Assembly: GCF_001921215.1 (NCBI RefSeq)
Contig: NZ_MSIF01000007.1
Coordinates: forward strand, 186,001 to 250,000
Source of the DNA: Actinophytocola xinjiangensis
GTDB taxonomy: Bacteria; Actinomycetota; Actinomycetes; Mycobacteriales; Pseudonocardiaceae
DNA: 64,000 nucleotides
Direction: 5' to 3'
Of the stretch, positions 1 to 25,229 are shown piece after piece (position 1 is the stretch's first letter; every line of letters starts with the position of its first letter). Below the pieces are notes generated by a model. It was not told where the DNA came from. It ran no database searches and was given only the letters and a program-made list of their open reading frames with translations. The position numbers were made by a program, and so were the translations under genes.

Positions 1-3000
1 TCGCCTGGCCCGCCTCGTGCAGCCCGGCGTGCGCGGCGGCGACGTAGGGCTGGGCCACGGCGGCGTGGATGATCTCCGCCAGCTCGATGCGGTAGCCGCG
101 CAGCTTGATCTGCTGGTCGATCCGGCCGGTGTAGTAGAGCAGGCCGTTGCTCTTCATCGTGACGATGTCGCCGGTGCGGTAGAGCCGCGGCGCGGGCACC
201 CCGTCGACGGTGACGAACCGCCGCGCGGTGAGGTCGGGCTTGTTCAGGTACCCGTCGGCCAGGCCGGACCCGCCGATGTACAGCTCGCCGCCGACGCCGA
301 CCGGCCGGGGCGCGAGGTTCTCGTCGAGCACCCACAGCGAGGTGTCGTTGACCGGGCGGCCGATGGGGATGGCGTCGTTCTCGTCGAAGGTCTCCAGCAC
401 GTGCACGGTGGCGAACACGGTGGTCTCGGTCGGCCCGTAGGCGTGTGCGAGCCGGCCGGGGCCCAGCCGCTCGAACCCGCGCCGCACGTGCACCGGGGAG
501 GCCACCTCGCCGCCGAACACCAGCCGCCGGACGCTGCCGAGCGAGTCGGCCACGTTGTCGATCAGCGTGTTGTACAGGGCGGTGGTGATGAAGAAGCTGG
601 TGACCTGGTGGCGTTGGATGATCGCGCCGAGCCGGTCGAGGTCGAGCAGCGACTCCCGGTCCACCAGCACCAGGGTGCCGCCGTTGGTCAGCGCGCCGAA
701 CATGTCGTAGACCGAGCCGTCGAACGAGTAGTCCGAGTGCATGAGGAACACGTCCTCGGCGCTCGCCGGGTAGAACACGGCCTGGTGGGCCACGCGCAGC
801 ACGGCGCGCTGGCGGGCGACCGAGCCCTTCGGCGCGCCGGAGGTCCCCGAGGTGTACATGACGTAGATCTCGTCGGCGCTGTCACCGCCCAGACCGGGGT
901 CGCGTTCGTCGTCGCTGGCCGCCAGGCAGGACGGGACGTCGGTGACCCGCAGGCGGTCCGAGGCCAGTTCGCCGGCGCGGTCCAGTCGGTTGCCGGAGGC
1001 GATGAGCACCACCGCGCCGGCGTCCTCGACCATCGCCCGCAGCCGCTCGACGGGGAACTCGGTGTTGAGCGGGACGTAGTGACAGCGCGCCTTGAGCACC
1101 CCGAGGATCGCGGTGATCATCTCGAAGGAGCGGTCCATCAGCAGCGCCACCGGCGAGTGCGGTGCCACACCCCGCCCGAGGAGACTGTGCGCGACCCGGT
1201 TGGCCCTGGCGTTCAGCTCGCCGTAGGTCAGCGTCTCGCCGCCCAGCACCAACGCGGTCTTCTCGGGCGCGGCGTGGGCGTTGGCCTCGAAGAGCCCGGC
1301 GATGGAGGTCTCCACCGGCACCGGGGCGTCGCCGGTGGCCAGGCGGGTGAGCAGCTCCCGCTCGCGGTCGGGGAGCAGGTCCAGTTCCCCCAGCGGGGCG
1401 GAGTCCGCCGCCGCCAGGACAGACCGCAGCAGGCGGGCGAAACGCTCGGCGTAGAGCTCGATGGTCTCCGCGCGGAACAGGCCGGTGGAGTACTCCCACT
1501 CCAGCAGCAGCTTCCCGCCGGACTCCCGGGTGCTCAGGGTGATGTCGTACCGGGCGCTGCCGTCGTCGAACTCGACCAGCCGCTCGCCGTCCTGCTCCAG
1601 GCCCAGGTCGGTGTTCTGGTGCACGAAGCACACGTCGAACAGCGGTCGGCGGCCGGCGATCCTCGGCGGGCCGAGGTCCTCGATCAGCAGGTCCAGCGGG
1701 TAGTCCTGGTGCTCGAACGCGTCGAGCACGGTCGTGCGCAGCCCGGCGAGGAACTCGCCGACGGTGTCGGTCGGCTCGGCGCGCACCCGCAGCGGCAGCG
1801 TCGCCACGAACATGCCCACCAGGTCCTGGTAGGCCAGCTCCGGCCGGCCGTGCACCGGGGCGCCGATCACCACGTCGTGCTGGCCGGACAGCCGGGACAG
1901 CAGTTGTTGGAACACACCCAGCAGCACCATGTAGAGGGTCAGGCCGCGCTCGCGGGCGAAGCGGGTGGCCGCCGCGAGCGTGTCGCCGTCGATGCTGGTG
2001 AACAGGGTCGCGCCGGTGGCGGCGCTGGTCTCCGACCGCTGCCAGTCGGTGGTCAGCTGGAGCGCCGGGACCTCGTCGTCGAACTGGGCCAGCCAGTGCG
2101 CGCGGTGCGGGGCGAGCGCGGTGGCGTTCTGCCGTTCCAGCAGGCCCCGCACGGCGGCGCGGTAGCCGGGGACCAGCGGGGGCAGCGGTGTCCCGTCGGC
2201 GATGGCCGCCAGGTCGCGGAACAGGATGCCCATCGACGTGCCGTCGGTGACGATGTGGTGGATGTCGATGGCCACGCCGGTCACGCCGTCGGTGAACTCG
2301 AACAGGCCGAACCGGAACAGCGGCGCACTGTCCAACCGGAACGGTCGCACGAAGTCGGCCATCTCGGTGCGGGCCACGCTCTCGTGTGTCTGACCCGGCG
2401 CGGGCGGCGGCAGCGGCCGGTGCTCCACGGCGATCGGCACCTGCGCGTGCACCCGCTGGAAGGGCTGGCCGCCGATCACCGGGAAGCTGGAACGCAGGCT
2501 GTCGTGCCGGGCCACCAGGACGGCCAGGCAGCGCTCCAGCTCGGCGGCGTCGAGGAAACCGTCGCTCAGCATCAGCCCGCTGACGTTGTAGGCCAGCGAG
2601 TTCTCGTCGATCTGGTGGGTGACGAACATGCCGCGCTGGGCGGCGGTCAGCGGCAGCTCGTAGTCCTGCGCCTCGCTCGTCCCGCGCGCCCGCTCGGCGG
2701 CCAGCCGCGCCCGCACCCGGTCCAGGTCCAGGCCGTGGCCGTTGATCACGACGTCGGCGAACTCGTCGAAGGTCGGGGTCGCCAGCAGCGCGCTGAGCGG
2801 AACGTCGAGCCAGAACGCCGAGTTGAGCAGCTGGGTGATCTTCACCGAGGAGATCGAGTCGCCGCCCAGACCGAAGAAGTCGTCGGTGCCCTGGATGTCC
2901 GGGTAGCCCAGCACCTGCGACCACACCAGGCGGACCGCGTCGCGCGCGGCACCGTCGGGCTCGGCCGGGTCGGTGTCGAGGGCGGTGTCGAGGTCGGCGA

Positions 3001-25229: not shown

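Follow-up and report, generated by a model that had tools for sequence, protein, structure and literature searches.

A conserved hybrid polyketide-peptide assembly line of Actinophytocola xinjiangensis that combines built-in and discrete acyltransferases

At the start of a 64,000-nucleotide stretch of the 9.5-Mb Actinophytocola xinjiangensis genome (positions 186001-250000 of contig NZ_MSIF01000007.1, here C67; the whole stretch is called the window) lies a gene cluster for a hybrid polyketide synthase-nonribosomal peptide synthetase (PKS-NRPS) assembly line, all of whose genes are on the minus strand. Long open reading frames (ORFs) are present on both strands; Pfam families were found on minus-strand ORFs only, the eight plus-strand ORFs scanned had none, and coding of the cluster on the plus strand was dropped. 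From position 28547 downstream the order is FkbK, FkbH, a free-standing acyl carrier protein (ACP), FkbI, a large hybrid protein, a discrete acyltransferase (AT), two synthases with ketosynthase, dehydratase, ketoreductase and ACP domains (KS-DH-KR-ACP), and a synthase of the order KS-ACP-C-A-PCP-E, in which C, A, PCP and E denote condensation, adenylation, peptidyl carrier and epimerase domains (Table 1). From the FkbI stop, which the ATG of the hybrid overlaps at 25229, to the third AT-less synthase, adjacent genes overlap or almost touch, apparently as in a coupled operon. The line exits the window at base 1 and ends 11 kb further on, with a C-A-PCP protein (C67:184123-180911) and a KS-AT-X-ACP-C-like protein (C67:180907-175088), beyond which lie an ABC ATPase, a permease and a HemK-like methyltransferase. 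From FkbK to the last synthase the cluster spans about 40 kb (C67:175088-214547). An earlier, sequence-only reading named parts that do exist, but it missed the four upstream FkbH-type genes (25226-28547) and the end of the line outside the window.

Table 1. Genes and domains of the assembly line, in window coordinates
Feature	Position	Strand	Basis
FkbK-like 3-hydroxyacyl dehydrogenase	27696..28547	-	Pfam 3HCDH_N/3HCDH
FkbH, glyceryl-ACP-forming HAD enzyme	26647..27780	-	TIGR01686, 265.5 bits (cut-off 146.65)
Free-standing ACP, FkbJ-like	26358..26630	-	Pfam PP-binding, 26.5 bits (cut-off 20.8); orthologue between FkbH and FkbI in relatives
FkbI-like acyl-ACP dehydrogenase	25226..26365	-	Pfam Acyl-CoA_dh_N/M/1
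Hybrid, AT(starter)-ACP-KS1-AT2-ACP-aminotransferase-C-A(Gly)-PCP-C-lobe tail	15345..25229	-	Pfam, motifs, hhalign
Loading AT of hybrid, Trp where family extender ATs carry Arg	24000..24950	-	Pfam, alignment
KS1, clusters with own-genome cis-AT KSs	22491..23591	-	Pfam, KS tree
AT2, malonyl-type cis-AT, HAYHSP, Arg kept	21207..22067	-	Motif, AT tree, alignment
Class-III aminotransferase (AMT) domain	19401..20282	-	Aminotran_3
Condensation domain 1, HHIIADG	17739..19016	-	Pfam, motif
Adenylation domain 1, code DILQVGVIWK (glycine)	16269..17675	-	Pfam, code columns
Tail matching only the C-terminal lobe of condensation domains	15345..15995	-	hhalign prob 96.3, C-domain columns 200-420 of 439
Discrete trans-AT, 417 aa, C-terminal extension, GHSLGE, GAFHST	14095..15348	-	Pfam (single Acyl_transf_1), motifs, AT tree
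KS2-DH-KR-ACP, no AT	9572..14095	-	Pfam, KS tree
KS3-DH-KR-ACP, no AT, start perhaps GTG 9579	4912..9639	-	Pfam, KS tree
KS4-ACP-C-A-(PCP-E), no AT	1..4912, on to C67:184136 outside the window	-	Pfam, KS tree

The distribution of AT domains along these proteins, the feature that had drawn attention to the locus, is real. A Pfam scan of the hybrid returns two Acyl_transf_1 stretches, as claimed before, together with one KS, three PP-binding, one Aminotran_3, one Condensation and one AMP-binding domain. At E<=1e-4 Acyl_transf_1 was not found in the three synthases that follow, and the domain strings of their relatives are likewise devoid of it; the gene at 15348-14095 consists of one Acyl_transf_1 stretch, in agreement with the three AT-free synthases and separate AT gene of the sequence-only reading. 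An AT in the same module as its KS, the mark of a cis-AT module, occurs only in KS1-AT2 and in the last KS-AT. Aminotran_3 lies between an ACP and a C domain, which gives the KS-ACP-aminotransferase module followed by an NRPS that is the hallmark of the iturin family. "Iturin-like" is thus a fair label for the aminotransferase, but the free-standing AT beside it is not odd, since iturin-type lines use FenF; what is unusual relative to those lines is that the aminotransferase module here owns an AT.

The same mixture recurs far beyond the source organism. With the aminotransferase domain as query, 397 genomes of the order yielded matches of at least 70% identity in three genomes, including its own, and of any identity (E<=1e-60) in 17. 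From a collection of 84,980 genomes the best 80 of 347 aminotransferase relatives were kept and 32 of them compared for synteny, 12 of which share the same neighbours. Together with the window and genome G295 these make 14 clusters in Actinomycetota, Bacillota and Pseudomonadota, the others being those of Saccharothrix carnea, Micromonospora rosaria, Crossiella sp. SN42, Streptomyces lomondensis, Actinokineospora pegani, S. globisporus, a Microbacterium metagenome-assembled genome (MAG), Spirillospora albida, Paenibacillus tyrfis, Cellulosilyticum ruminicola, a Chromatiales MAG and Alteromonas sp. a30. Eleven of the 14 (the window and ten more) are complete in the DNA examined; contig ends truncate the clusters of M. 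rosaria and the Chromatiales MAG, and that of S. globisporus was covered in part only. The core order runs from a putative hydroxymalonyl cassette through a starter module and an aminating module of cis-AT type to glycine, the trans-AT block, a pair of peptide modules, a ZmaA-like last module and a condensation-like domain for the predicted release; because it recurs in ten further complete clusters, the arrangement is not a matter of chance. The discrete AT gene is present in 14/14 clusters, and FkbK, FkbH, ACP and FkbI are present in all 12 whose examined DNA covers that place. The loading domain varies: six clusters have an AT and five an A-like domain, in one no loading domain was recognised, and in two the examined DNA does not extend that far. 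The hybrid's C-lobe tail, of about 200 residues, sits where peptide synthesis switches to trans-AT polyketide synthesis and was recognised in 12 of the 14, the exceptions being Alteromonas and Cellulosilyticum. In C. ruminicola, an anaerobic rumen bacterium, the big proteins of the line are broken into several ORFs (split genes, decay or sequencing errors).

Other aminotransferase hybrids (on the organism's own contig C34 and in genomes G374, G386, G330, G065 and G178) are not syntenic, and the Niallia and Paenibacillus plasmid matches belong to a different line. The hybrid on contig C34 (427300-428604) is a second aminotransferase PKS-NRPS of the same genome, of cis-AT type and with further NRPS modules downstream.

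The KS tree sets KS2-KS4 apart from KS1. It was built from 91 KS domains of reference lines and of ten clusters, all but those of M. rosaria, Spirillospora, S. globisporus and the Chromatiales MAG, after one short Methylosinus KS had been dropped. In it KS2-KS4 share a clade (support 0.999) with KSs from the epifadin, bacillomycin, Niallia and iturin-like Paenibacillus lines. KS1 joins 28 of 29 own-genome KSs (0.938), the 29th joining at 0.912; these are presumed to be cis-AT, an AT having been found for 12 of the 13 such loci entered in the AT tree. The last KS joins that of another aminotransferase cis hybrid of the same genome (0.998). Among solved structures, the best matches after 7zma are PksL for KS2 and PksL, then PksJ, for KS4, the two KSs compared in this way. 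The possibility that all KS domains would group with cis-AT synthases, which was to have undone the mixed cis/trans reading, is not what the tree returns; that reading is backed by the absent AT domains and by the KS and AT trees alike. Each KS position is monophyletic across the ten clusters, and the line has therefore been inherited or transferred as a whole.

In the AT tree the discrete AT groups with the bacillomycin and epifadin ATs. Its top solved match is FabD, followed by the disorazole AT DisD, with PksC and PksE (bacillaene) also matched. Although 815 plasmid records match it, only nine do so over at least 80% of its length, and the bacillomycin AT BamD, the epifadin AT and that of an iturin-like Paenibacillus line are among the six of these nine that were listed. 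To judge by these comparisons, the discrete AT is of the extended type found in the bacillomycin and epifadin lines.

Different AT domains of the line appear to select different acyl units. In all six AT-loaded clusters the loading AT has Trp in place of an Arg that family sequences keep in AT2 (11/11), in the last AT (11/11) and in the discrete AT (12/12). We take this Arg to hold the extender carboxylate; its replacement would point to a monocarboxylic acyl-CoA starter. KS1 keeps its active-site Cys and thus does not imply a decarboxylating loading KS. At the other end of the line, the best solved match of the last AT is ZmaA (259.3 bits, the next 221.8), which is absent at E<=1e-40 from the solved matches of the loading AT (36 matches) and of AT2 (three). 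The ZmaA AT accepts hydroxymalonyl-ACP (PMC6164871; this and the other papers are cited from excerpts of their open-access text), and the resemblance suggests that the last AT does so too. A source of this unit could be provided by the upstream enzymes, for the gene set for hydroxymalonyl- or methoxymalonyl-ACP (FkbH, FkbK, FkbI and ACP) is complete and contiguous in Pfam and TIGR family scans, with the true FkbH start probably near 27672. The same scans found no FkbG O-methyltransferase among the four upstream genes; the sole methyltransferase is the HemK-like one at the far end.

Motif comparisons, from which rows of clusters lacking a domain were excluded because they display another domain's motif, find the KR, KS, C, aminotransferase and DH2 motifs intact. 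The first A domain has a DILQ-type code in 14/14 clusters, and the glycine proposed for it earlier is backed by the code DILQVGVIWK, read from columns chosen by hand. The amino acids named here are those that we take the codes to specify. The A domain before E is of DGYF type in 10/13 clusters, with DGIF in P. tyrfis, DGAF in Alteromonas and DGPF in the Chromatiales MAG. The next is Val-like (DAFW, DSFW or DALW with GGTF) in eight of the 13 clusters that reach it; Crossiella, S. lomondensis and Cellulosilyticum have other codes there, and Spirillospora and Actinokineospora combine a Thr-like code with one extra A domain. The KS4 synthase (2418 aa counted from the ORF start at 5392) has a second Pfam Condensation stretch, read as an epimerase, with the motif HHLAVDVVSW, which we take to be typical of E domains; an E domain probably follows the PCP of this module. 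A condensation-like domain (prob 98.6) closes the last protein; its HHxxxDG motif has Asp for the first His, and the second His is retained in 14/14 (DHxxFD). Release by a terminal condensation domain is described for palmerolide, basiliskamide and phormidolide (PMC8739492).

From the domain order, the missing ATs, the KS and AT groupings, the motifs and their conservation we infer a hybrid line that works co-linearly and selects its acyl units in four different ways, an explanation that we regard as fairly probable and in which all substrates, the number of turns and the release chemistry are predictions. The loading AT would take a monocarboxylic acyl-CoA starter and hand it to the ACP. KS1 with its own malonyl AT would then add two carbons, the aminotransferase would convert the beta-ketone to an amine, and the C-A-PCP module would add glycine. 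The three AT-less modules, charged with malonyl by the FenF/EfiB-type discrete AT, would lengthen the chain by one unreduced and at least two processed C2 units. Two NRPS modules would follow, the first for a Leu/Ile/Val-like residue, probably turned to D by the E domain, and the second for a Val-like residue, after which the last KS-AT module would add hydroxymalonate from the hydroxymalonyl-ACP made by FkbK/H/ACP/FkbI. Finally, the condensation-like domain would release the product, most simply by attack of the beta-amine (a macrolactam) or by ring closure on the last residue. The chain would be beta-amino acyl-Gly-(poly)enyl-beta-keto-D-amino acid-Val plus an oxygenated C2 unit, closed to a ring. 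The sequence-only product, beta-amino-acyl-Gly-dienoyl-beta-ketoacyl-amino acid, agrees in its glycine, but it stops too early, with no place for the probable E domain, the FkbH genes, the Val-like module or the final ZmaA-like extension and its condensation-like release domain, and its dienoyl count assumes one use per module. It is an evenly poised question, in our judgement, whether this is a product family without a known member, marked by a whole core order kept across three phyla, four acyl selections per chain, an oxygenated C2 end and a closed ring.

A number of observations weigh against this explanation. In the alignment that sets the loading AT apart, the Arg is also missing from one own-genome AT (Met) and from one Methylosinus AT (Gln). 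The Cellulosilyticum cluster has several split ORFs and no recognised loading domain. Hydroxymalonyl transfer by the last AT may fail for some members, because the ZmaA margin of the P. tyrfis enzyme is small (213.1 bits, the next 204.1) and because the motif of the last AT is variable (HAYHS, HAFHS, HAAHS, RAGHS, RANHS). The X stretch of the last protein has only a weak KR-like match (prob 12), and the A-domain codes come from hand-chosen aligned columns. Activity of DH3 is less sure, since Ser replaces the Gly of HxxxGxxxxP, which the relatives shown also lack. Against TIGR01720 the E-like stretch scores 28.2 bits, under the cut-off of 74.2, and no E domain was recognised in the Chromatiales MAG cluster. 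As for the trees, that of the KSs is midpoint-rooted with few references, and that of the ATs has no usable last AT from Spirillospora. Five KSs of Methylosinus, which come from a classical trans-AT line with discrete ATs and HMGS genes, lie beyond the midpoint on the KS1/cis side instead of joining KS2-KS4, and the last KS lies on the side of KS2-KS4 (0.918) despite its own cis-AT. Because these KSs break a plain cis/trans split, "trans-AT" here denotes the iturin/epifadin branch and not the one represented by Methylosinus.

As to the dienoyl count, a similar AT-less block in the epifadin line reportedly acts iteratively, three PKS modules there accounting for nine malonyl units (PMC11310079), and the block described here could conceivably do the same and build a longer polyene, so that the product would not be co-linear. 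KS2-KS4 share the clade of the epifadin KSs, and the block order is alike; the monophyly of the KS positions over ten clusters, however, fits fixed positional roles, and KS2-KS4 pair only weakly with single epifadin KSs (0.24-0.59). We consider iteration unlikely, albeit the strongest of the alternatives. A little less likely still is that the compound has been described before and its cluster not recognised. Streptomyces and Micromonospora are among the long-studied genera that also carry the line, and the literature was covered as open-access text without MIBiG. There, no match was found for the cluster, its parts or the named relatives, and solanimycin, alpiniamide, palmerolide and epifadin do not fit as far as the excerpts go. 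In line with the sequence-only remark that the order matches no cluster its author could name, no characterised cluster of this order was found in open-access full text, a weak negative with MIBiG and subscription papers outside its scope.

It is doubtful that the discrete AT instead serves an AT-less module with hydroxymalonyl or methoxymalonyl taken from the ACP that FkbH loads, the last cis-AT being a malonyl enzyme. Such a role has a precedent in OzmC, a discrete AT for methoxymalonyl-ACP (PMC6164871), the FkbH genes and the discrete AT are both conserved, and the last AT has a malonyl-like HAFHS in P. tyrfis, Cellulosilyticum and Alteromonas; but the discrete AT goes with the bacillomycin and epifadin ATs, has FabD as its best solved match and carries a GAFHS motif, and the last AT is nearest to ZmaA. 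That the AT-less synthases are degenerate cis-AT modules of a dead cluster is hardly credible, for although the ATs are missing and DH3 lacks one motif residue, the KS, KR, C, aminotransferase and DH2 motifs are intact and the order is the same in ten other complete clusters.

Several genes around the line deserve mention. The HemK/PrmC-like methyltransferase (L010:1839-3350), beside the cluster's ABC transporter, scores below the NCBIfam cut-offs and above that of Pfam MTS; in relatives it lies at either cluster end or is unrecognised in the DNA examined, and it could be a tailoring or self-protection gene. Just past the cluster end, an AMP-binding fragment (L009:19214-19981; Pfam 28.8 bits, cut-off 29.9) looks like a remnant. 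Further on lies a pPIWI-RE island (C67:151548-158439, equal to L009:1548-8439) with a restriction endonuclease (REase)/Y protein, a DinG-like helicase and a pPIWI_RE protein (Pfam, PADLOC), near a SEFIR/TIR-domain gene (L009:128-1294). The window also holds a sortase-family protein upstream of the cluster (29273-29962), a 949-aa CHAT-domain protein (caspase-like peptidase; 33760-36609) encoded on the minus strand and, outside the cluster on the plus strand, NADH:quinone oxidoreductase subunits (NADHdh, proton antiporter; 44623-48248).

Our impression is that mixed cis/trans lines are usually treated as single cases. Here the same mixture in 14 genomes of three phyla means that a line has been kept or passed on as one unit, and a benefit of its product to the producers is therefore likely. 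Most striking is the cross-phylum conservation of a line longer than first noted, for which no product was found in the open-access literature. Named producers (Saccharothrix carnea, Streptomyces lomondensis, Crossiella sp. SN42 and Paenibacillus tyrfis) allow a direct product search, and the line is a natural test case for chain passage among cis-AT, trans-AT and NRPS modules and for what the conserved C-lobe tail does in it.

Of the systems considered as a match, solanimycin (PMC10204066) differs in order and product, and alpiniamide (PMC6113372), a mixed line with glycine, was rejected on a text that does not mention an aminotransferase. The excerpts on enamidonin (PMC12843350) do not give its gene cluster; those on virginiamycin (PMC10006238) give no domain order. 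A trans-AT survey (PMC7930024) omits cis-AT modules, and its main text names no Saccharothrix, Micromonospora or Alteromonas.

With iturin, bacillomycin and mycosubtilin the line shares, as far as the excerpts describe them, a class-III aminotransferase in a PKS-NRPS protein that makes a beta-amino acyl chain, and an extended malonyl-type discrete AT; in iturin-type lines FenF supplies malonyl to MycA in trans (PMC3039948). In contrast to that group, the KS beside the aminotransferase has its own AT2, lies in the cis-AT group apart from the bacillomycin KS and is not of the FenF-served type, more AT-less PKS modules follow downstream, and the window's line loads by AT-ACP instead of an acyl-AMP ligase, with A-like loading in five of the 12 relevant clusters. 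The epifadin line (EfiA-E) is alike in the block that follows its NRPS part, a domain scan of the region giving NRPS / AT / KS-DH-KR / KS-DH-KR / KS-C-A, and in its KS clade. The aminotransferase, FkbH and cis-AT query domains had no match within the epifadin region compared, and whereas that line ends with an Asp tetramate (PMC11310079), the present one continues with E-like, C-A-PCP and KS-AT-X-ACP-C parts.

Alpiniamide (AlpA1-A3) resembles it in being an actinomycete line with an AT in its loading module, AT-less later modules and glycine followed by two malonates, but it has C-methyltransferases, and the excerpts describe no further peptide modules or hydroxymalonyl part (PMC6113372). The likeness to zwittermicin A lies in the ZmaA-type AT for hydroxymalonyl-ACP (PMC6164871). 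Palmerolide (pal) shares starter, glycine, AT-less PKS and a terminal condensation domain with the second His, but is a trans-AT line with an HCS cassette, and the word aminotransferase is absent from its text too (PMC8739492).

Each piece of the line is thus already known, be it FenF acting in trans, the iterative epifadin block, ZmaA with hydroxymalonyl-ACP or mixed cis/trans lines as such. Zwittermicin has the same four-gene set in a line whose module order and chain differ, the sequence compared being the solved ZmaA AT alone. Kirromycin, virginiamycin M and oxazolomycin have cis-AT and AT-less modules in one line, or glycine and then AT-less modules; they are not known to have such an aminotransferase domain, and they follow another order. 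With alpiniamide and kirromycin as mixed lines, the mixture itself is less surprising; what is new is the combination of parts and its conservation.

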